Source of the DNA: Candidatus Enterovibrio altilux
GTDB taxonomy: Bacteria > Pseudomonadota > Gammaproteobacteria > Enterobacterales > Vibrionaceae
DNA length: 64,000 nt
Reading direction: 5' to 3'
Assembly (NCBI RefSeq): GCF_002381345.1
Contig: NZ_CP020660.1
Span: 620,001-684,000 of the forward strand
Below the pieces are notes generated by a model, which ran no database searches, was not told the DNA's origin, and worked only from the letters and a program-made list of their open reading frames with translations. Below are positions 31,014-55,813 of the stretch, piece after piece (the first letter of the stretch is position 1; every line of letters begins with the position of its first letter). A program made the position numbers and the translations under genes.

Positions 31014-31056
31014 ACCTTGCAACTGGTCATCTCAATATTTGGCTAAGAAGAATATT

Positions 31057-33050
31057 ATGGCTTTGGACATGAACTAACTACGCAAAAATTTTTGAACGTG
31101 AACTGCTCACACTTAATTCTAATAGTGAAGTATCTTTTCAAATTTTTCATTCGATTTTTCGAGCTGCACACTCAATCAAGGGCGGAGGTGCAACATTTAC
31201 TTTTCATGGAATTAGTCAGTTTATCCATGTTATAGAAACACTTCTTGATGAAGCGAGAAAAGGACAGCGCATTCTTGATATCGATACGATTGATCTGCTA
31301 CTTAAAGGAGGCAACTGCATCAACAGTATGTTGGTGGTTTATGGAACTGATTCTAGTTTTAATCATATAAAACGTGATGTAATAGCCGTCAAAAGAAAGT
31401 ATTGTTGAATCGGATGATATTAATGGCAAGGGTAATTGGATTATTAATTTTAAACTGAACAGGAATATGTTTTTTGCAGGCAATGATCCTGTTTGGTTTT
31501 TACGAAAATTATTTGAGCTCAGTGTACATTGTATCGTGAAATGTCTTTTTGATGCATTGTCTACTTTCAGCAAATTTGAACCAGACATATACTATTTAAA
31601 GTGGCGGATAATAGTTGATAGTTTGCTTAAAAAACACCTAGTTGAAAAAATTTTTGAATGGATAGAAAAGTAATATACATTGGAAATGACACGTCCTGTG
31701 TTGAAACGTACTATCAAGATAACGAAACCTATCTCCATGATGTATCACTAGCCGTTGCGGCTAGTGATACATCGCCAGACATATTATCAGTTCATAAAGT
31801 CACAAGTAGAGTACATGCAAAATCAAAACCATCAAAGGCAAATGAAGTATCTTCAATTCGTGTTGTAATCAATAAAATTGACAAATTCATTGAATTGGTT
31901 GCTGAATTAATTATCACTCAATGTATGTCAACAGAACTAAGATAAAAATTTTTTAAAAATAAACTAATTTGTTTACAAGCAGGGCTAGATTAACTCCTTC
32001 AAAACACCAAAGCATTGTAAAAAAATATCTTTAATATTCGTATGTGACCCATTAGTTTTGCATTTAATCGTTTTCCTCGTTTTCTTCGTGCTTTGTCAAC
32101 TCAGCTTGAAAAAAATATTGATCTTGAGAGTAAAGGTGAACAAACTGAGCTTGATAAAATCATATTTGAACGTATCAGAGATCCCCCCTCGTACACCTTA
32201 TAAAAAATATTGTAGATCATGGCTTGGAAGAACCTGAATTGCGCTTGCAAAAAGGAAAGCCAGAAACAAGAAAATTTTTTTACTGCGTTTCACCAGGGGG
32301 GCTCTATTCTAATTGAAGTGATGAATCATGGCGCTGGGTTAGATAAAAAGAGAGTATGGAAACAAACTATCGAAAAAGGTTTACTTCACCCTGATATATC
32401 TTGGGATTATTTGTTAGATGATCAGGTCTATAACTTGATTTTTTTACCTAAACTTTCAACGGCAGAGCAAGTGTCTGATGTATCTGGGCGCAGTGTAGGA
32501 ATGGATGTGGTAAAACGAAACATAGAAGACTTGGTGGTCACATTGAGGTAAACTCAGAAACAAATGTTGGAAGTATATTCCGCATTAGTTTACCGCTCAT
32601 ATTAGCCATTTTGGATGGGCAGTTAGTCAAGCTTTTGCATCAAGTTTTAATGGTGCCACTTATTTCGATCATTGAATCAATCCAAATTGAATCTAAACGA
32701 GTAAAAGTTGCGATAGGAGGATTGAATTGTATCGTGTTCGTGATAAAAACATTCCTATTCTTCGTCTCAAAGAAGAGTTTATGTTAGGCAAAGCGAGAGC
32801 ATTAAATAAACCATTACTCTGTCTCGTAGAAGCAGGTGGTAACCGCATTGAGTTACTTTTCGATGAAGTGTTGGGTTAACAACAAGTTGTCATTAAAAGC
32901 CTAGCATCAAATTCTACCTTCATAACTGGCATTTTAGGACCCACTATTTTAGGCGATGGATCAATGCCGCTTATCTTGGATGTTCAAGGGCTAATGGCTC
33001 GTTTCCTAGGTCACTTAGAAGATACAAATAAACATATTGCGCATAGGTGA
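31057..33050 (+). pseudogene. cheA histidine kinase of a second chemosensory system, broken
   Basis: Starts at ATGGCTTTGGAC (31057). Recognisable domains in order: Hpt with AAHSIKGGGATFTFHG (about 31170-31210), kinase pieces including DHGLEEPELRLQKGKP (near 32216) and VSDVSGRSVGMDVVKRN (near 32470-32520), and the CheW-like P5 domain with ILGDGSMPLILDVQG near the end (32950-32990). Many stops and frameshifts divide it; the longest open pieces are under 110 codons. It cannot produce a kinase. Confidence 0.85.
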
Positions 33051-33550
33051 AAACCATAACAAGTCCTGCCACCGTGACTGTAGGATTAATGGTAGGTGAA
33101 AGTAAATTAAAAGGATCTCCTTTCCTGGGTTTTGACTTAGCCCATGAATTTTATGATGTTGATATCAAAGCAGTGAAAAAAATTCGAATGTGGGAGCGAC
33201 CTACAATCATCCCGCTGGCACCCAAATTTATTCTGGGTGTCATTAATCTGCAAGGTATGATCGTGTCTATTATGGATCTTCGAGTGAGGTTTGACATAGG
33301 TCAGGTAGAATATCTGCCAACCACGGTTGTTTTAATTTTGAAAGCAGGCGAAGTGGCTGGTGAGCGTATATTGGGTATCATTATTTACGCCATATCTGAC
33401 GTAATAGATATGGGTGACAATAATCTGAACTCACCGATGAAAAATTTCTAAGTAACGCCATTTGTCAGTGATCTGCTAAATGTAAATTTTCAAGTCAGAA
33501 GCTTCCTCGATGTCGACTCATTACTCAACATTGAAAGCCTTATGCATTAG
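33047..33550 (+). pseudogene. cheW-like adaptor (first copy), nonsense-truncated
   Basis: An open frame of 134 codons gives a CheW fold (FYDVDIKAVKKIRMWERPT, APKFILGVINLQGMIVSIMDLRVRF) and is then stopped by TAA (33449). The same frame continues VTPFVSD...FLDVDSLLNIESLMH to TAG (33548), the normal CheW end. One nonsense codon removes the last beta-strands of the second subdomain. The start GTG/TTG region overlaps the end of the cheA remnant. Confidence 0.8.
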
Positions 33551-33559
33551 GAAAAATAC

Positions 33560-34032
33560 ATGTCGGACGAAGTAAAAAGCGTTTCTTCTTTTTTGATAGA
33601 TGACGAGGAATAGGGTATTGATATCCTACATGTCAGAGAGATACGTAGATCATCATATGCAAAAAAACTACCAAATAGTGAAAACTATCTCCTTGGTTCT
33701 CTTGAGTTGCGTGGTGAGTACACATCTATCGCTGATTTCTGACCACACTTTAGTATGATGCTAGCTATGCTGGACGGTCTAACAGTTGTGGTAATCGTCC
33801 GTCATAAAAAAGGACAATCGTTGGGTATCGTTGTTGATGCTAGAACTGAAGTATATCAATTATCAGCGGAACAAATTAAATCAGTACCATACTATATGGA
33901 AATTAACGAACAGTTTGTTGCAGGTATCGCGTCTGTCAATAGAGAGCATGCGGTACTAATCCAATTAACAAATTGTTTAATTTTAATGCGTTACATAAAA
34001 TTGCGCAGCCGTCGTTGGCTGGCAAGGATTAA
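33560..34032 (+). pseudogene. cheW-like adaptor (second copy), broken
   Basis: From ATG (33560) the frame reads SDEVKSVSSFLIDDEE-stop-GIDILHVREIRRS, then NYLLGSLELRGEYTSIADF-stop, then a CheW C-terminal half (KKGQSLGIVVDARTEVYQL, NEQFVAGIASVNREHAVLIQL). A late frameshift near 33970 hides the normal ending LFNFNALHKIAQPSLAGKD. Two nonsense codons and one frameshift. Tandem cheW genes are typical of this operon class. Confidence 0.8.
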
Positions 34033-34093
34033 GATTATGTTCAGGTGAAATAAAAATAAGATAACTGTCACTGAAAACACACAAGAAGAGTAA

Positions 34094-34962
34094 GAATTGA
34101 AAGCGTATATTGTGTCTGCACTTGACACCACCCAAACTACCTTTATGATCGTGGATAATAATTTTAAGATCTTTTATGCTAACAAAAAATCGGTAGAATT
34201 ACTGAAGAAGCATGAAGTTTTATGTCGCTCCAAATAGCCGAATTTCCGTACTAAAAAAAATGGGTTAAAGAAATTTATATTGATTTATTTTTTGCGAATC
34301 CAGCCCCTCAACGCTAGATGTTGTCTAATGCTACCATTCTTTCGTATGAAACCACTGTTAAAGTAGCTAATGTTTCACTCCGGCCCCTTGTAAGTACTAT
34401 CATAGATATTAAAGGTGACCACGGTGAAAATACGCTTGAATGGGGAGATATCACTGAATCTCTTACAGCTATAATTTTCATTGATCGCGATTTCAAAATT
34501 ACTTATATTAACGAAGAAATGGTAACTCTGTTTGGTAAATATCAAGAGTCATTTCGGAAGGTTTGGTTTGGGTTCCATACAACTCAAGACTGGTTAATAA
34601 AACAATGGATTGATGCATTCCACAAAAATCCAACGCACCAATACCAGCTCTTATTCATCCCTTTAAATCTTCCGTATAAAACGGATATTAATATTGCAGA
34701 GCTCACCATCGAATTGAATGTAACGGCCATCATTGATGTAAAAAGTAATTACATTAGTAGCAACCTTGAATGGCGTGATGTGACAGAGCTTCGTGATAAT
34801 GACAAGAAAGTTGGGCGTTTAGCTTCTACTGTTGAAAGGATGACAACTAACTTTATGATAGTTCATAAAATGATAGTATTTTCTTTCTCAATCCTGCTAT
34901 GAAGATCAGTTACGAAATCACTTTCCCACTTTCTCTGTAGACAAGTTGATTGGAAAAAATAT
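34094..34962 (+). pseudogene. PAS-rich methyl-accepting chemotaxis protein, truncated
   Basis: Three successive PAS-like segments are readable: SALDTTQTTFMIVDNNFKIF (from about 34110), TAIIFIDRDFKITYINEEMV (from about 34465) with EWRDVTELRDNDKKVGRLAS, and TTNFMI...EDQLRNHFPTFSVDKLIGKN (to about 34960). After that the sequence switches directly to the middle of cheR. The HAMP/methylation/signalling hairpin is gone, so the receptor is dead. PAS-PAS receptors without membrane segments occur at this position in the related Vibrio cluster. Confidence 0.75.
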
Positions 34963-35470
34963 TATATTCGAATGTGGTTAGCCAGTTGTTCTACAGGAGA
35001 AGAGCCGTATACTATTGCATTCATGTTGGCGGCTGCCAGTTTACTGTCTCCTCAGTATAACTGAAAGATCCTCGCTACTGATTTGAATAGCCAAGTTTTT
35101 AATGTAGCAAGACATGGCACTTATAATATTGAATCAATAAGGATTATACCTGAATCTCTTTTACATAATGGGTTTATTCGTGGGAAAGGATCGAAGCAAA
35201 AATTATTATAAGTCAAACCATTGCTGCAAGATCATATTCATTTTAAGCAACTAAACCTCATTGTTCCCTGGAAACATCAGAATCAATTTAATGTGATTTT
35301 TGTCGTAATGTACTGATTTATTTTGCAAAAAGTGCAACAATAACTCATTTATCAATTTTGAAAAAATACTCAATAATGAAGGTTTATTTTTTATTGATCA
35401 TTCAGGAAATATCCGTGGAATAAAAGGCAGATTTGACAACCTTGGTCAGACCATGTTTTATAAGTCATAG
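34963..35470 (+). pseudogene. cheR methyltransferase remnant lacking its N-terminus
   Basis: Begins at the SAM-binding motif RMWLASCSTGEEPYTIAFML, then KILATDLNSQVFNVARHGTYN, a frame-shifted FCRNVLIYFAKSAT block and a tail ending GQTMFYKS. The N-terminal helical domain (about 80 residues) is missing because of a deletion that joins it to the MCP. Several stops and frameshifts. Confidence 0.8.
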
Positions 35471-36012
35471 GCGTATGTAAACGATATTTAAAAAATTATA
35501 TAGTCTTTGTATCCATAGAATTCTGGAGCTAAAAAAACTGTCTTATCAGCACGGGAGGGAAAACGTTTCTATCACTCAGATAAACAGAGAATAATGATAA
35601 AAATACAACTGAGTGAAGTGCATATAACCTCAGAGCGAGAGCTGATATCTACAGGTTTAGATTCGTGTATCTCAGCATATGTGTGGCGAGACCGATAGTA
35701 TCGAAAGATGGAATCCTACGCAGTAGTGCTCTAATGCTACACGCTACGGTAACTACGCAATGGAATTCCTGTTTAATACATGAATTCAACAAAGTACACT
35801 TAAAAGTTCACTAACAGCAAAATTGCTTGGTGGTGAAATTATGATAGGCCAACATGCAAGTATTGGTGACAAGAACAGTTTTTTTATTCGTGCATATATC
35901 ATGAGTGAAGAGATAACTTTAGCGAGTGAAGATTGAAGAAATAAGTATTCACGTAAAGTGGTCTTTAATCCGATAGCCGGTAAGGCATAACTGAAAAAGA
36001 TAGGTAATTAAT
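35471..36012 (+). pseudogene. cheD receptor deamidase remnant
   Basis: Pieces of CheD in order: HITSERELISTGLDSCISAYVW (about 35618-35685; the active-site Cys region GSCVSV of CheD is here DSCISA), NATRYGNYAMEFLFN (about 35733-35775), TAKLLGGEIMIGQHASIGDKN (about 35815-35877) and SRKVVFNPIAGKA (about 35951-35990). Stops separate the pieces. A cheB would be expected next; the IS relic at 36114 begins there instead. Confidence 0.8.
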
Positions 36013-36113
36013 GTATCATTATGACAAAAGAAGAAAATAATTATAAACATGATCTGATTAATAAAATTAAACGAAATAATGCAGGAAATACAGAACTATT
36101 TTCATAAAAAAGC

Positions 36114-37530: not shown

Positions 37531-37956
37531 TCAGCAAACTAATTTCTGCTTCCGTATTCTGAACAGAAGTTCAGCTTCAGCTTTTGGAAGGTCACACTCT
37601 TCCATTAACTCATGAATATCAGCACCTAACTCTACCATTTTGCTTGCTCGACTATAAAGTCGACCATCAAGGTCGCGCATTTCCAATTCATTTTGCTTCT
37701 CAACCATATCGTCAAAATGTTGAGACAGTTCAGCAAGCTTCTGGCTCATACCAATAGATCCTGCCCGTAATTCATTGAACTGTTTTATTAAGCTTTCATG
37801 CTGTTGACGAGTATTTTTATAAATTAATTCCATCGCTTGAAACTTAACTTCCAAATTGACCCTTGCTTTTTTTTCTCTGCGAAGCAGTAAAAGTATTATT
37901 AACCCGATGACGACTGAAATACCGAGTAGCAACCAGTACGACACAATATTAAGCAT
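37531..37956 (-). CDS. DUF2802 membrane-anchored coiled-coil protein of the flagellar che cluster
   Basis: A 141-residue protein with one N-terminal membrane helix (residues about 4-26, LLLGISVVIGLIILLLL) and a long predicted coiled coil after it. A DUF2802 gene directly after cheW is a conserved end of the polar flagellar cluster of vibrios and pseudomonads; the function is unknown. The ATG at 37956 overlaps the cheW stop (TGATG arrangement), so translation is probably coupled; the longer start at 37980 would lie inside cheW. The last six residues (RKQKLVC) look odd: two nucleotides away another frame reads NTEAEISLLNRKF and ends at 37517, so a small C-terminal frameshift is possible. Confidence 0.75.
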   Translation of the reverse strand: MLNIVSYWLLLGISVVIGLIILLLLRREKKARVNLEVKFQAMELIYKNTRQQHESLIKQFNELRAGSIGMSQKLAELSQHFDDMVEKQNELEMRDLDGRLYSRASKMVELGADIHELMEECDLPKAEAELLFRIRKQKLVC

Positions 37957-38444
37957 CAAAGCATAGCCATATCTGACCACTCTTCATCTGAAAGTAATTT
38001 ATTCAAGTCAACCAAAATTAATAAGTTACCATTACGGTTGCTAACACCTTGAATGAATTTGGCACTTTCGTCAGTACCCACACTTGGTGGGGTATCAATT
38101 TCAGAGACGCGCAAATAAATGACTTCTGCAACACTATCAACCATGATACCGATCACTTGCGATTCAGCTTCTATCACAATAACACGCGTGTTATTAGAAA
38201 TATCACCCTGTATCAGACCAAAACGTGACCGCGTGTCGATAACTGTTAAAACGTTACCTCGTAGATTAATAATACCAAGAACATAGTTTGGTGCTCCTGG
38301 AACGGGAGCGATTTCGGTATAACGTAAAACTTCCCGAACTTGCATGACATTAATGCCGTAAGTTTCATCTTCCAGCTGAAAAGTCACCCACTGCAGGATT
38401 GCATCATTCACATTGTTTTTTTGAACTTCAACGACCTGAGACAT
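37956..38444 (-). CDS. cheW: Chemotaxis coupling protein CheW
   Basis: A 162-residue CheW adaptor linking chemoreceptors to CheA in polar arrays. The two SH3-like subdomains are complete: WVTFQLEDETYGINVMQVREVLRYTEIAPVPGAP (split here by me: the first strands at 19-52), YVLGIINLRGNVLTVIDTRSRFG, and VIGIMVDSVAEVIYL followed by FIQGVSNRNGNLLILVDLNKLL. AAGGAAAATAG precedes the ATG. It is the only intact cheW in the window and must serve the intact CheA. Confidence 0.95.
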   Translation of the reverse strand: MSQVVEVQKNNVNDAILQWVTFQLEDETYGINVMQVREVLRYTEIAPVPGAPNYVLGIINLRGNVLTVIDTRSRFGLIQGDISNNTRVIVIEAESQVIGIMVDSVAEVIYLRVSEIDTPPSVGTDESAKFIQGVSNRNGNLLILVDLNKLLSDEEWSDMAML

Positions 38445-38468: not shown

Positions 38469-39586
38469 CTACATCACCGCATTGGCATCAATATCATAAT
38501 TAAGCATGGTGATTAAAATTTGGACATGGAGCAATGCACACATCTTTTCTTTGGCTAATCCAACCAACCAAGATTATTTACCCGCTTGTTTACACCACTG
38601 CACTTGCTTACTTTTAAGTGACTCAGTCCCAAATAAAGTACTTCAAGCTAAGCACCACTCACTATTACTCAAAACTATAATATAATTATAGTTCCTTCGA
38701 TGACTCTTATTTGTTATTTTTCCCGGCATCACACATATGATGGTGTCAACAATATCCAATCGTTGGTTATGTTCAATCTGAAGCCTCAAATACCAATCGG
38801 AACGACCGATAAAGTTATTGCACTCTTTCAATTGGTGAATGCCACCTAGCTCCGTCAATAACACAGCACAAATCACACCCACCGCCTCAACGCATAACAC
38901 TTAAAACACATCCTCAAATGCGATATTTTTTCATGGTAATTCATTATCAATGTGATGAGTATTGGTATGTAAAGCTACATCACTGTCGCGCTCTGCATTG
39001 TCTTCATTGGAACAGATATTACCACCTCTTCCATTACCGAATCGTCAGAAAAAACAGTTACTCAGTATTTATATAAATGTTAGTACATACATCCCAGACT
39101 AAATAAAAATCGAAGACTACACATTAACAAAAATCATCTCATCTTGTGTTCACACTAATACATTAGTATATGCTTCAACCGCCTCCATTACGTCTGTATC
39201 TTTAACTACATTTAGATTAATCTTAGGTACCAACCCAATATTGATAAGCTTTTCAATATCACTAGGTTCTTCAACATCATCCACCATGCCATCACTTAGC
39301 TTTACTTGGCTTAATAGCTTTCCGACATGAAAGAAATCGTGCGCTTTCTGCATTAACACCATACTTTCACGTTTCTTTGGGTTTTCGACGACTTTCATCT
39401 GTAGTTGTGCCATTGATCTTCCTGCTGTATCAATATCAATGGAACCTGTCAAATACGCCGTTCAGTGTCAACAACTAGAAACAGTGCCGTATCAACGTTA
39501 TCTGACAAGACACTCACATAGTCTAGCAGCACATCAAAATCAGCATCCAGCGTTTGAACGCTAAATAAAATTTTTTTATCTTTCAT
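38469..39586 (-). pseudogene. parP: parP (polar CheA/ParC adaptor), inactivated
   Basis: The start MKDKKILFSVQTLDADFDVLLDYVS overlaps the parC stop as parP does in vibrios. After about 45 codons the frame is lost (near 39452), continues in another frame (39150-39452) and breaks again. The C-terminal CheW-like (AIF) domain is still readable across frames: LTELGGIHQLKECNNFIGRSDWYL and RLDIVDTIICVMPGKI (38643-38900), then VQWCKQAGK and GLAKEKMCALLHV near 38480-38600. ParP binds ParC and CheA and keeps arrays at the pole. Several frameshifts and stops make a functional product very unlikely. Confidence 0.82.
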
Positions 39587-40355
39587 CCTGCTCCAATCTC
39601 TCCAGATAAGAGAGCAACCTTTTATATGCAAAAACTCCACGACAATTTTTTACGTAATACGAAGGTGGCATATGTTTTAAGCTCGCATCACAAAATTTGG
39701 CATCAATTGGTACCGCTGATGCCCATATTTGACCTGAATAACGTATTTTTAGCTCCTGCAGTGTTTCAAGAGAAGCACGAGTACGCTTATCATACATCGT
39801 CGGTACAATACATACTTTAAAAATTGACTTACGTGATTTTTGCATGATTTGGAGCGTACGAATCATTCGTTCAAGTCCTTTCATGGCAAGGAATTCAGTT
39901 TGAACAGGAATAAGAATACGGTTACTTGCTGCAAGTGCATTTACCATCATTACACCTAAAATAGGTGGACAATCGATCAATGAATAATCGTATTCCTTTT
40001 CTAGGCAGCCCAATGTCTTCTTAAGCATCAACCCCATACCACTTCGGTTACTCATTGCACGATCTAGCGTTGCCAATGACATATGAGAAGGTAATAAATC
40101 GAGATTTTTATACTCTGTGTTGAGAATAAGCGGTTTCACCGTATCACTATTGATAGTCTGCAGTTGAAAGAGATCAAATAGAGACCGAGGTAACGTGTCT
40201 GAATCATAGTTCAAATAAGTAGTCAACGACGCATGTGGATCGGTATCAATTAATAAAACTCGCTTATTCTTTTCACTGAGAAGCCCTGCAAGAGTTATCG
40301 CTGCGGTTGTTTTTCCAACGCCTCCTTTCTGGTTTGCAATGCTCCAGACTATCAC
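39576..40355 (-). CDS. parC: ParC, ParA-like ATPase for polar chemotaxis arrays
   Basis: A 259-residue ParA/MinD-type ATPase that in Vibrio cholerae and V. parahaemolyticus recruits chemotaxis arrays to the flagellated pole. The deviant Walker A KGGVGKTT (residues 10-17) and the ALLIDTDPH-like switch (VLLIDTDPHASLT) and YSLIDCPP Walker B are intact. No ATG is available: the GTG at 40355 is chosen because AGGAG lies 6 nt before it and it gives MIVWSIANQKGG; the GTG at 40361 would touch the ribosome site. The ribosome site overlaps the 3' end of cheB. The downstream partner gene parP is dead, so ParC may have lost its function. Confidence 0.92.
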   Translation of the reverse strand: MIVWSIANQKGGVGKTTAAITLAGLLSEKNKRVLLIDTDPHASLTTYLNYDSDTLPRSLFDLFQLQTINSDTVKPLILNTEYKNLDLLPSHMSLATLDRAMSNRSGMGLMLKKTLGCLEKEYDYSLIDCPPILGVMMVNALAASNRILIPVQTEFLAMKGLERMIRTLQIMQKSRKSIFKVCIVPTMYDKRTRASLETLQELKIRYSGQIWASAVPIDAKFCDASLKHMPPSYYVKNCRGVFAYKRLLSYLERLEQDER

Positions 40356-40364
40356 TACCACTCC

Positions 40365-41513
40365 TTATACCAAGTTGAACTCGACGAGTATGCGTTCAGA
40401 AATCCGATCAAGAGGAAGGTCTTCAGAAGAAATTCCGGCCTTTGAGACTGCTCGTGGCATGCCGTAAACAACACAGCTCTTTTCATCTTGGGCCCAGATT
40501 GTTGAGCCTTCTTGCTTTAACAGTCTTGCACCATTACGACCATCCGTTCCCATGCCGGTCAGTATCATTGATAGTACTTTATCACCGTATGCATTAGCTG
40601 CTGACCCAAAGGTTATATCAATACAAGGTTTATAATTCATGCAATCACCACCATCAATAATTTTAATGCTCACTGCCCCAAAATGACTATTTAGCATCAT
40701 CTGCATACCACCAGGAGCAAGGTAGGCAGTACCTGCTTGCAATGCGTCGCCATTTTGCGCTTCTTTTATGGAAAGTTTACATAAGCCATTTAAACGCTGA
40801 GCAAAAGCAGCGGTAAAAGTCGATGGCATATGCTGAATCAGCAAAATAGGAACAGGAAAATGTACTGGCAACACACAAAGTACCTTTTGCAGAGCAACTG
40901 GTCCCCCTGTTGACGTTCCAATAGCAACCAACTGATAACGTTTGCCACTCGCTTTAAATTGCGAAGCTGATGTCACTGGCTTTGCCATAGGTGCTGAAGC
41001 TATGGTAGCTGTGTCAGAAGACCCAGCAAATGCTCGCGTTAATGAATGTCTCGTACTTGCAGCCGCAGTCTTCTGTGAAGGCCGAGCTATTAGTACTTGT
41101 CGGCGCATCCATACTTTTTTGCGTGCAATTTCACTTACGCGTTGTTGAAGAAGGCCAATAGCTTCATCTCGGTTACGCGCAATATCTTCAAATCTCTTAG
41201 GCAGGAAATCAAGCGCACCGGCATCCAACGCATCAAGTGTTGCCTTAGCACCATCATGCGTTAGTGATGAAAACATCAATATTGGTGTTGGATTAAACTT
41301 CATAATTTTACGGACAGCAGTGATTCCATCCATCACTGGCATTTCAATATCCATTATAATAACATCGGGTTTCAATTGCGTAGCTTTCTCCACTGCTTCT
41401 TTGCCATTAGCAGCGCAGCCGATGACTTTGAGACGTGAGTCGCTATTGATTATCTCACTCACTCGCCGGCGAAAAAAATTTGAGTCATCCGCGACCAATA
41501 CTGTCATTATCAT
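40365..41513 (-). CDS. cheB: Chemotaxis response regulator protein-glutamate methylesterase CheB
   Basis: A 382-residue two-domain protein removing methyl groups from chemoreceptors for adaptation. Receiver domain: Asp9/Asp10 in VADDS, phospho-acceptor Asp55 in [13 protein letters not shown], Ser in LMFSSLT, Lys in FLPKRF. After a linker (about 135-185) the methylesterase domain has the Ser-His-Asp triad in [16 protein letters not shown] and GMGTDGRNG. The start may be the first ATG (41513) or the third codon (MTVLVADDS, 41507). It lies between cheA and parC, with a 15-nt gap to cheA. No cheR partner is seen in this window, apart from the dead copy at 34963; the flagellar cheR is normally elsewhere. 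Confidence 0.95.
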
Positions 41514-41528
41514 ATTATTCCTTTGTTA

Positions 41529-43550
41529 TTATTGCCTAGAATAACGCTTAAGCAAATTAGGCACATCCAAAATCAAAGCAATATGACCATCGCTGGTGAT
41601 TGTTGCACCCGCTATCCCAGGTGTACCCTGCAACAACTCATCCAATGGTTTGATAACCACCTCTTCTTGCCCTATCAATGAATCAACCACAAATGCAATG
41701 GGTTGCTGCCCTATCTGAACAATGACTACATGCCCTATTTTCCTGTTTGCTATTCGTGTTTGACATAACCAATCTTGCAAGTAAAATAGAGGAATTACTT
41801 TGTCGCGCACAATTAATGTCAACTGACTATCAACTGTATTCGTTTTTGCCAGATCTAAGCTAATAATTTCATTCACATTTGATAGAGGAAATGCGTAAGG
41901 ACTATTTCCTATCCCCACCATCAATGTTGGCAAGATCGCTAACGTCAGCGGTACTTTTATTGAAATGATAGTACCTTTACCCAACACTGAATCAATAGAG
42001 ATTGTGCCGTTAAGTTGAGAGATAGCTGTTTTGACTACATCCATACCAACACCACGTCCAGATATATCTGAAATTTCAGCTTTAGTAGAGAATCCTGGAG
42101 CAAATATAAGGTTAAATGATTCAATATCAGTCAAACGCGCAGCCGCATCAGCATCCATAACACCACGATCGACTGCAATACCACGGAGTATTTTAGTATC
42201 CATACCACCACCATCATCTTCAATCGTTAATAAAATATGGTTACCCTCTTGCGACGCAGCCAGAGTAACAGTACCTACCCGTGACTTACTCTTTTTTTCC
42301 CGTGCATCCGGCATTTCAATACCGTGGTCAACTGAGTTTCGAACTAAATGGACCATGGGGTCTGCAAGTGCCTCCACTAAGTTTTTATCTAAATCTGTTT
42401 CTTCTCCACGCATTTTTAACACGATATCTTTATTCAAATTACGTGCCAAATCACGTATAACTCGTGGAAAACGACCAAACACTTTTTTGATTGGTTGCAT
42501 GCGTGTTTGCATTACGGCGCCTTGCAAATCAGCAGTTACAACATCAAGATTCGTCACCGCTTTCACCATGTTTTCATTATCACTGCTGGCGCTAAGACTA
42601 ACCAAACGGTTACGCACAAGTACCAATTCACCGACCATATTCATGATCTTATCTAAGGTCGATGTATTAACACGTACAGTTTGTTCCATTTGAGGTACTG
42701 GTATCTTTCGCTCTTCTGCTTTCACTGGTGGCTTCGCTGCTACTGATGGTGGTTGAGCCGATGGTGCTAGTTTCTGTGGTGGTGGCGCAGGTTTAAGTTC
42801 AACTTTTGGTACTGGGGAGGGATCTTCATGGGTATTCTCTTTTGACTTGTCCTCTATAGGACTATTACCATGCAGTATATTAAGGAGATTTTCGAAATCA
42901 TCATCAGTCATGTCATCACCGCTTGAGCTTTTGACCGATGTGTCTGGAGAGGATAATGGTGGTGAAGTTGCATTACTATTTATCAGAGGGCTTTTACCTG
43001 AACCATGCAATTCGTCAAGCAACCGATCAAATTCATCATCAGTAATTTCATCAGTAGAGTCACCCGCAATTGCATTATCACCGTAAAATGGTACTTTCGA
43101 GATAGCTTCTGGTTCTAATTTTAGCCCAGTCGTTTCTTCAATAACTTTATCTTCAACTGCAGGCCTACTGTATGTATGTAGCGCGCGCAGCAATGTTAAA
43201 TCTGCTGCTGTTGCCTGTTGTCTTTGTTGTACACATGCAAACTGCTCATTAACAGTGTCAAGCGCTTGAAGGATGATATCCATTACCTCAGGTGTTAATT
43301 TTCGACCACCATTTCTAAGATTATCAAAAATATTTTCCGCACCGTGACAGGTATCTACCAGCTCTGTAAGCGATAAAAATCCTGCACCCCCTTTAACTGT
43401 GTGGAATCCCCTAAAAATAGCGTTAAGTAGTTCTCGATCTTCAGGAAATTTTTCCAGATCAACTAGCTGTTCAGACAATAGTTCCAAAATTTCACCAGCT
43501 TCGATCAAAAAATCTTGCAGTATTTCTTCATCCATTTCAAAGCTCATCAT
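41529..43550 (-). CDS. cheA: Chemotaxis histidine kinase CheA
   Basis: A 673-residue sensor kinase. Domains: Hpt with phospho-His50 in FHTVKGGAGFL; a linker with two CheY/CheB-binding-like acidic segments (MTDDDFENLLNILHG near 214-228 and ITDDEFDRLLDELHG near 168-182) and a Pro-rich stretch (about 250-280); dimerisation helices (MNMVGELVLVRNRL); ATPase with N-box LVRNSVDHGIE, G1 DDGGGMD and G2 GRGVGMDVVK; C-terminal CheW-like domain ending LILDVPNLL. All catalytic motifs are intact, in contrast to the dead cheA at 31057. It phosphorylates CheY and CheB. Confidence 0.96.
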   Translation of the reverse strand: MMSFEMDEEILQDFLIEAGEILELLSEQLVDLEKFPEDRELLNAIFRGFHTVKGGAGFLSLTELVDTCHGAENIFDNLRNGGRKLTPEVMDIILQALDTVNEQFACVQQRQQATAADLTLLRALHTYSRPAVEDKVIEETTGLKLEPEAISKVPFYGDNAIAGDSTDEITDDEFDRLLDELHGSGKSPLINSNATSPPLSSPDTSVKSSSGDDMTDDDFENLLNILHGNSPIEDKSKENTHEDPSPVPKVELKPAPPPQKLAPSAQPPSVAAKPPVKAEERKIPVPQMEQTVRVNTSTLDKIMNMVGELVLVRNRLVSLSASSDNENMVKAVTNLDVVTADLQGAVMQTRMQPIKKVFGRFPRVIRDLARNLNKDIVLKMRGEETDLDKNLVEALADPMVHLVRNSVDHGIEMPDAREKKSKSRVGTVTLAASQEGNHILLTIEDDGGGMDTKILRGIAVDRGVMDADAAARLTDIESFNLIFAPGFSTKAEISDISGRGVGMDVVKTAISQLNGTISIDSVLGKGTIISIKVPLTLAILPTLMVGIGNSPYAFPLSNVNEIISLDLAKTNTVDSQLTLIVRDKVIPLFYLQDWLCQTRIANRKIGHVVIVQIGQQPIAFVVDSLIGQEEVVIKPLDELLQGTPGIAGATITSDGHIALILDVPNLLKRYSRQ

Positions 43551-43556
43551 ACACCC

Positions 43557-44139
43557 CTAAAGGCCTAGGCTAGAAAGCAAGTAGTTTACATCGTCCTGAT
43601 TCTGCACCGCATGATTATCTTAGCGCTGTTCCTTAGTAGTAATAGCCAGACTTTCAGATTCGACATCAATAGTTTGTACTATATCTTTTCGTTTGTTTTG
43701 CTCGTCCTCCAAACCAAATATGGTTAAAATTTTTAGCCATTACTTTCAATTTTTGGTACTAATTTAAGCACACATCAAGTAATCTGCCTCGTTAAATTTA
43801 ACGCTATAAAATTTCGGTTAATTGACCATGCAGTTTGGTTTTGTCTCCTGCCACCTACGTTAATAAACCATCTAATGGGTGACGCAAATTTTTGAAGTTA
43901 ACAAAGTCAATTCTCCCTTATATAAGGCTGTGCCACTGAGAACTAATCAGAACACGACATTTTTAAAATTTATTTAAAGTGAGGTAAAGCATCATGTAAC
44001 TACCTAGTCAATTTACCTACCTCGTGGAAGAGCAAATTACAATCATGACTAATCTATTAGCCAGTAATTCATTCGTACTTTCTTGATCAATTTCTTCAAA
44101 TAAATTGACCAATGCTTTAGTTTGATCGAGTGTTATCAT
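43557..44139 (-). pseudogene. cheZ: cheZ (CheY-P phosphatase), inactivated
   Basis: Between cheA and cheY, where cheZ sits in vibrios. Start MITLDQTKALVNLFEEIDQE (from 44139) stops after about 40 codons. Further pieces follow in shifting frames: NFKNLRHPLDGLL and VAGDKTKLHGQLTEIL (43800-43900), a degenerate NLTRQ at 43783-43797 where CheZ has the catalytic DLTGQ, and KILTIFGLEDEQNKRKDIVQ (from about 43735) with the C-terminal CheY-binding tail QDDVNYLLSSLGL before TAG (43557). At least five disruptions. The catalytic Asp position reads Asn, so even a restored frame would be suspect. Confidence 0.9.
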
Positions 44140-44174: not shown

Positions 44175-44555
44175 TTACATACGCTTAAAAATTTTGTCCA
44201 GCTTCTCTTTTAACGTGACCGCAGTAAATGGTTTCACAATATAGCCATTTATACCTGCTTGAACAGCTTCAATAATTTGTTCTCGTTTGGCTTCTGCAGT
44301 AATCATCAGCACCGGAAGGTGCTTGAGAGCGCCATCAGTACGAATATTTTTAAGTAAATCAATACCTTGCATGCCTGGCATATTCCAATCAGTAACGACA
44401 AATTCAATACTACCTTTTTTAAGAATTGGCAATGCTGTTAAACCGTCATCGGCTTCAACAGTATTGTTGAAACCCAGATCACGAAGAAGATTTTTAACGA
44501 TACGGCGCATTGTTGAGAAATCATCAACAATGAGAATTTTCATCTCTGTATTCAA
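44175..44555 (-). CDS. cheY: Chemotaxis response regulator CheY
   Basis: A 126-residue single receiver domain that binds the FliM N-terminus when phosphorylated and switches motor rotation. All five active-site residues are visible: Asp11, Asp12, phospho-acceptor Asp56 ([12 protein letters not shown]), Thr86 (MITAEA) and Lys108 (YIVKPF); Tyr105 corresponds to the rotamer-switch Tyr106. It lies 37 nt after fliA. Its dedicated phosphatase cheZ is dead. Confidence 0.96.
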
Positions 44556-54760: not shown

Positions 54761-55813
54761 TTATTCATTTTTGTCTTCAAAGCCATGGTTCTTTAGCTTA
54801 AAAAAATTATTTTCTATCTGTGCAATATCACTTCTTTGTACCTCTGGACGTTTTAATTTTTTTGATATTTTAATAGCAAAATTATTATTTGCTTGCCCCA
54901 TTTTACCGCGGAATGTTGGTAGATCTTCAATGTAAACAGTACATGCATCAGGCATTTCCACCGGAATTACATCACCGACTCCCAACTCCATTAGATCTCG
55001 CAAAGACAGTGATATTTCCAAGAGTTTTGCCGTAAGCTCGACTTCCACATCCATCACTTCGTCTTGCAGAGCTTTTGACCAACGAAGATCAGTATCCATC
55101 TTATCACTTTGGATACCAGCATCCAGTAACTCTCGAATTGGTTCGACCATTGAATAGGGCATAACGATATGAAAATCACCACCACCACCATCAAGTTCAA
55201 TGTGGAATGAACTCACCACAATCACTTCAGTTGGACTCACGATATTAGCCATGGCTGGGTTCACTTCAGAATCAAGGTACTCAAATTCAACCTTCATCAC
55301 CGGCGCCCACGCATCTTTATAGTCTTCAAATATTAGCTTAAGCAACATTTGAATAATGCGTCGTTCTGTCGGAGTAAACTCACGGCCTTCGATTCGAGCA
55401 TGAAAACGCCCATCACCACCAAAAAAATTTTCCACTAAAATAAAAACTAGTCTCGCTTCCATAGTGATTAAACCCGTCCCTTTAAGGGGACGGAAACGCA
55501 TCATGTTCAAACTAGTAGGTACAAATAAAGTATTTTGGTATTCACCAAACTTCACCATTTGTACGCCATTAATTGACACTTCTGCAGTTTTACGTAGCAT
55601 GTTAAATAAGCTAATGCGCATATGGCGTACAAATCGCTCATTAATTAGTTCCAGAGTGGGCATACGCCCACGAACAATATGATCTTGTAAGGAAAAATCA
55701 AAATTAGATGCTGAGGCTATATCCCCACTACCAGCCTCTAGTTCATCATCTACGATATCATCTACGCCATGAAGGAGCGCATCAATTTCGTCTTGGCTCA
55801 GTAGATCGGTCAC
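54761..55813 (-). CDS. fliM: Flagellar motor switch protein FliM
   Basis: A 350-residue C-ring protein. The CheY-P binding peptide LSQDEIDALL is at residues 5-14, the middle domain has the GGXG-type motif region (VENFFGGDGRFHARIEGREFT, residues about 129-149), and the C-terminal SpoA domain (LRDLMELGVGDVIPVEMPD) binds FliN. Since the CheY-binding peptide is intact, motor response to CheY-P should be retained. It lies 7 nt after fliL. Confidence 0.96.
   Translation of the reverse strand: MTDLLSQDEIDALLHGVDDIVDDELEAGSGDIASASNFDFSLQDHIVRGRMPTLELINERFVRHMRISLFNMLRKTAEVSINGVQMVKFGEYQNTLFVPTSLNMMRFRPLKGTGLITMEARLVFILVENFFGGDGRFHARIEGREFTPTERRIIQMLLKLIFEDYKDAWAPVMKVEFEYLDSEVNPAMANIVSPTEVIVVSSFHIELDGGGGDFHIVMPYSMVEPIRELLDAGIQSDKMDTDLRWSKALQDEVMDVEVELTAKLLEISLSLRDLMELGVGDVIPVEMPDACTVYIEDLPTFRGKMGQANNNFAIKISKKLKRPEVQRSDIAQIENNFFKLKNHGFEDKNE

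Follow-up and report, generated by a model that had tools for sequence, protein, structure and literature searches.

A broken cheZ and a retained cheX in the reduced genome of an anglerfish symbiont: a candidate case of chemotaxis with CheX as the only CheY-P phosphatase

How is CheY-P kept in check in a bacterium that retains its flagellar and chemotaxis genes when cheZ, the gene of its CheY-P phosphatase, is broken? The question is raised by positions 43557 to 44139 of the window, by which we mean the whole stretch of 64,000 nucleotides that was analysed (C1:620001-684000). The genome under study (G000) has 2,143,356 bases in 4 contigs, of which C1 makes up 1,604,691 bases, and it matches Candidatus Enterovibrio luxaltus CC26, a glowing symbiont of a deep-sea anglerfish. 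The host of CC26 is Cryptopsaras couesii (PMC6020299, PMC6773444), and its library consisted of Illumina paired-end 250-bp reads, with a coverage of 14x according to Table 2 of the genome paper (PMC6020299). For comparison we used a same-genus genome of 2.6 Mb (G012), taken as the sister anglerfish symbiont Ca. E. escacola, a further genome of the same genus (G006), and two Vibrionaceae genomes of 1.1 and 1.0 Mb (G208 and G209), the size of flashlight-fish symbionts in the same Table 2 (PMC6020299). An initial annotation had described cheZ as a pseudogene inside an otherwise intact operon and proposed that taxis may be lost while swimming is kept. The chemotaxis genes concerned are the following.

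54761 to 55813, minus strand: fliM, open, with the N-terminal peptide LLSQDEIDALL
44175 to 44555, minus strand: cheY, open, product 90% identical to CheY of G006
43557 to 44139, minus strand: cheZ pseudogene, from frameshift-aware alignment, with 6 in-frame stops, 4 frameshifts and an internal deletion of about 137 bp
41529 to 43550, minus strand: cheA, open, with Hpt, dimerisation, ATPase and CheW domains all found
40365 to 41513, minus strand: cheB, open
39576 to 40361, minus strand: parC (ParA-like ATPase), open
38472 to 39592, minus strand: parP pseudogene, traced through tblastn fragments and an alignment of the DNA; G012 and G006 have an open copy
37956 to 38444, minus strand: cheW, open, product 90% identical to CheW of G006
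C1:1502879-1503343, outside the window: cheX, 154 aa, open, matching the Pfam CheX profile

The cheZ relic was aligned with the intact CheZ of two same-genus genomes, G012 and G006. Against G012, 103 of 181 aligned residues were identical and 50 residues remained unmatched; against G006 the identity was 107 of 184. The relic runs from an ATG at 44139 to a terminal TAG at 43559-43557, and the internal deletion appeared as a gap of 137 bp in the DNA alignment with G012. Of the 6 stops, one falls in a poorly aligned stretch beside this deletion, which leaves 5 secure, and at least five disruptions, as the initial annotation had counted them, are present. The catalytic DLTGQ does read NLTRQ in the alignment: the Asp has become Asn and the Gln is kept, two residues that we take to be the catalytic pair of the DxxxQ pattern. 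CheZ of seven relatives shares 85 invariant positions that align with the relic, counted without residues 53-112 (the deleted stretch); 30 of them are now changed or stops, and the gene has lost about a fifth of its length. The decay can thus be called recent in a relative sense only.

A profile search of the whole genome with PF04344 (CheZ) at E<=0.001 gave no match, so neither the relic nor a second cheZ was found, and a second copy elsewhere in the genome was rejected. The same profile matched 35 of the 41 genomes in our search of relatives (G000 counted among the 41), and all 80 named cheA loci carry a cheZ match without a stop. The relic still resembles the CheZ family in its place between cheY and cheA, its order of segments, its start and stop sites and its C-terminal peptide, but it cannot be translated through its stops, frameshifts and deletion, and with neither a profile match nor a single open frame it does not qualify as a member. 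Sequencing or assembly error is a very unlikely origin of the lesions, which are many and independent in an Illumina paired-end library (though at 14x), and the neighbours cheY, cheA, cheB, fliA, flhF and flhA are open frames.

The rest of the pathway was largely open. The expected domains were present in cheY, cheA, cheB, parC and cheW, and flhG, flhF, flhA, flhB, fliR, fliQ, fliP, fliO, fliN, fliM, fliL, fliK and fliG were open with Pfam matches as expected, the ATPase flhG and the GTPase flhF being matched to general Pfam models. The FliM peptide is presumably of the CheY-binding type. The earlier statement that cheY, cheA, cheB, cheW, fliM with this peptide and the motor genes (here fliG and fliN) are open was therefore correct; the description of the operon as otherwise intact was not, since the parP gene that separates parC from cheW is a pseudogene as well. 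A CheW-domain search at the parP site gave no match, whereas the G012 copy of parP does have the domain. Of the 80 named cheA loci, 2 were without parC, 4 without parP and 6 without cheW, and stops lay within 3 parC matches and 1 parP match. CheA has 673 aa compared with 716, and lacks one acidic DITDDEFxxLLDxLHG linker repeat that G012 and G006 have. With parP broken, parC open and one linker repeat lost, the anchoring of the polar array may have changed.

Outside the window cheR, cheV and two MCP genes were open. Signalling-domain matches to MCPs numbered two, whereas the search of five larger genomes from the genus gave 13-37. The two open MCP genes (L091:2320-4635 and L092:956-2521) are of the dCache/HAMP type and the PAS type; one functional MCP gene was counted for CC26 in the genome paper (PMC6020299). 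Additionally, the window contains a fragmented second chemotaxis cluster at about 31043-36101 (plus strand), with cheA, two cheW, an MCP, cheR and a 215-aa gene. In the sister symbiont G012 (C22) most of it is open, with stops in a cheB-like gene. As the kinase, regulator, motor-switch and adaptation genes are conserved, some way to lower CheY-P is to be expected.

A candidate for this role was found outside the window. The cheX gene matched PF13690 with 79.3 bits (cut-off 27) over profile positions 1-94 of 94, and the Pfam CheC cut-off was exceeded too. It was the sole match in the genome to the CheZ, CheC and CheX models; a separate CheC was rejected, as PF04509 matched only this gene in G000. 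Compared with solved CheX chains, the protein matched 6vpw at E 2.8e-72, 3hzh_B at E 1.1e-9 and 1squ/1xko at E about 4e-8; 3hzh, 1squ and 1xko are, as we assume, CheX of Borrelia and Thermotoga. The catalytic motif of the CheC/CheX/FliY enzymes is ExxN, and it is present here as E91-I-T-N94, with E91 and N94 invariant in 30 of 30 homologues. The gene scored 70.2 of the 280 bits required by the equivalog NF041094, a model named for Thermotogales, and is filed as CheX family. The earlier statement that no CheC- or CheX-type replacement was seen thus holds within the window, and genome-wide it gives way to an open cheX, a candidate phosphatase gene. The initial annotation had named a second functional cheZ or cheX elsewhere in the genome as a result that would speak against its reading, and this open cheX, with its predicted function, comes near to that.

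The gene is flanked by a FUR-family (zur-like) gene and by pgi. The same neighbourhood is common among relatives: within 1.5 kb on each side of 30 CheX loci we found the zur-like gene in 25 and pgi in 22, the same-genus loci L033 and L034 being without the zur-like gene. A second and longer protein with a CheX domain (frames of about 235-284 aa, E about 1e-8) was present in the same-genus genomes apart from G000 and G012, at L036, L037 and other sites of the 41-genome CheX search; it had no match in G000.

We compared the constraint on the retained genes with G006, quoting pN and pS because many dS values were saturated. For cheX the identity was 89%, with pN 0.069 and pS 0.854; the corresponding pN and pS were 0.059 and 0.683 for cheW, 0.051 and 0.604 for cheY, 0.128 and 0.809 for cheA, and 0.126 and 0.752 for the zur-like gene. 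The ratio pN/pS was 0.08-0.17 across cheA, cheY, cheW, cheB, cheR, cheV and cheX. In the underlying table parP of G000 is represented by an 85-codon fragment, and fliR of G016 by a partial sequence. CheX differs at 4 of the 109 positions that are invariant among seven relatives, versus 30 of 85 in the cheZ relic; in such counts of private changes flhF of G000 was incomplete (73 codons), and the zur-like gene was compared with 5 relatives, the others with 7. We concluded that the constraint on cheX is similar to that on cheW or cheY.

The distribution of the two phosphatase genes was then taken into account. CheX matches occurred in 32 of the 41 genomes, two of them weak and in longer frames (G026, E 9e-12; G037, E 1e-6). 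CheX without CheZ was found in G000 only, CheZ without CheX in G012, G034, G038 and G039, and neither in five genomes. Of the four with CheZ only, G034, G038 and G039 lie outside the Vibrionaceae and, with 3.4-4.3 Mb, are not very small; CheX is thus dispensable elsewhere as well. Within the family CheZ was present at E<=1e-10 in 185 of 197 Vibrionaceae and absent from 12, and when these 12 were profile-searched for CheA and CheX, both were found only in G000 and neither in the other 11. The search for CheX covered 37 of the 197 and found it in 22 of 25 CheZ-positive members versus 0 of 11 CheA-less ones (Fisher p 6e-7, a value that ignores relatedness); these presence and absence counts are phylogenetically non-independent, with 9 of the 11 CheA-less genomes in one genus and all 11 in three genera. 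G018 (2.6 Mb), also small, is without CheA, CheZ and CheX. The three CheX-less exceptions among the CheZ-positive members, G012, G208 and G209, are all small genomes and have CheZ and CheA. They resemble G000 in being reduced, in keeping CheA and in keeping one of the two phosphatase genes, and differ in the choice: they kept CheZ without CheX, and G000 kept CheX without CheZ. This reciprocal pattern, in which one phosphatase gene is kept but its identity varies, is drawn from four small genomes, two of which (G208 and G209) are assigned by size only.

A decayed cheX in the sister symbiont was looked for and rejected. In G012 pgi is present, and next to it (L090:9706-10166) there is neither a zur-like gene nor cheX; tblastn over L090 detected no remnant of either, the best cheX match (29% over 75 residues, E 3e-4) falling inside pgi. 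One larger deletion may have taken the zur-like gene and cheX together in G012, the loss of cheX then being a by-product.

In the genome of E. luxaltus cheZ is broken and cheX is open and constrained, whereas the sister symbiont and two genomes of about 1 Mb made the opposite choice. From these sequence comparisons it appears on balance probable that Vibrionaceae commonly carry two unrelated CheY-P phosphatases, and that each of the four reduced genomes kept one of them, in this case CheX. In the family, cheZ belongs to the flagellar and chemotaxis operon, and cheX usually adjoins the zur-like gene and pgi. As the genome of the anglerfish symbiont was reduced, only one CheY-P phosphatase may have been needed; cheZ would then have been inactivated and have decayed, leaving CheX, which is intact and has the ExxN motif, to remove phosphate from CheY. 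The CheA-CheY-FliM pathway could thereby still work with a retuned motor bias, and the cell would continue to be chemotactic. Redundancy followed by the loss of one phosphatase, CheZ, is the simplest account of the observations. Counting against a replacement by CheX are the place of cheX outside any chemotaxis operon, the loss of the zur-like gene along with it in G012, and the score far below the cut-off of NF041094.

The strongest rival places the compensation at the kinase: CheA, with its linker shortened, ParP missing and the receptors reduced in number, would be less active, and self-hydrolysis of CheY together with phosphate sinks such as CheV would suffice. The broken parP, the missing linker repeat, the two matched MCP genes and the open cheV are consistent with this, and in the laboratory E. 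coli cheZ deletions evolved to spread better, with cheA mutations in all lines (PMC12270135). The changes in CheA itself point the other way. Private changes at its conserved positions were 23 of 409 here and 20 of 424 in the CheZ-keeping G012, about equal and thus no clear excess. In the alignment with G012 and G006, CheA is unchanged in its histidine and ATP-binding motifs. Damped kinase activity would also leave the retention of cheX unexplained. We therefore keep it as a rival, though a rather unlikely one.

The reading of the initial annotation was that no working CheY-P phosphatase exists, so that CheY-P persists, the motor is biased or switches too often, and directed taxis is lost while swimming is kept. 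Both cheZ and parP are broken, the second chemotaxis cluster of the window is in ruins, MCP matches are few, and E. coli cells deficient in cheZ tumble mostly (PMC12270135). We nevertheless consider this reading unlikely. The open and constrained cheX argues against it, as does the absence of CheX from the 11 CheA-less relatives tested, and the low pN/pS of the open cheA, cheY, cheB, cheW, cheR and cheV would be unexpected were taxis useless. With these genes, cheX and two MCP genes open, the proposal that taxis may be lost was not supported. That CheX is instead kept for another job, on a different response regulator or at the pole or motor, and survives beside a broken cheZ by coincidence, is highly improbable: cheX does adjoin the zur-like gene and pgi, away from the che genes, and the role of its V. 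cholerae relative VC0377 is given as undetermined (PMC8789113), but CheX is missing in all 11 CheA-less Vibrionaceae tested, from three genera, and also in the three small CheZ-keeping genomes.

Returning to CheX as the retained phosphatase, the navigation of the symbiont may well survive, probably on this spare part. The genome paper reported that all of nearly 60 flagella and chemotaxis signalling genes were kept and the pathways intact (PMC6020299). This published statement needs amending, as that genome has both cheZ and parP broken; the word cheZ is absent from the main text of both anglerfish genome papers. Four small CheA-bearing genomes of one family, with one phosphatase gene each and not always the same one, offer a natural test of the role of CheX in gammaproteobacteria.

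It is already known that CheZ and CheX are alternative phosphatases. Our literature search, with most subscription papers outside its scope, found no CheX-only chemotaxis system of Vibrionaceae beside a visible cheZ relic. The closest published hint that we found to a role of CheX in this family is a motW suppressor of V. cholerae that had its second mutation in vc0377; this gene belongs to the CheX family, and its role is left there to be determined (PMC8789113). The gene studied here agrees with the CheX family (PF13690) in its full-length profile match, its ExxN motif and its matches to solved CheX chains, and differs in lying beside a zur-like gene and pgi outside the che operon and, with predicted activity, in the coexistence of Vibrionaceae cheX with CheZ noted above. 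E. coli without CheZ has excess CheY-P and tumbles most of the time (PMC12270135). The cheZ-deleted E. coli lines that evolved in soft agar share with E. luxaltus a chemotaxis network without CheZ, but there the compensation came through cheA and other mutations, and the main text is without the word CheX (PMC12270135). In the Campylobacterota with F3-class chemotaxis CheZ and CheX occur jointly and cheX was lost in some Helicobacter, so the loss concerns cheX, not cheZ, and another phylum (PMC9321776). For E. luxaltus we give an even chance to the full proposal, that genome reduction split two redundant and unrelated CheY-P phosphatases that normally serve Vibrionaceae chemotaxis and left a natural CheX-only chemotaxis system within a family that otherwise relies on CheZ, a non-orthologous replacement with the old gene still visible.
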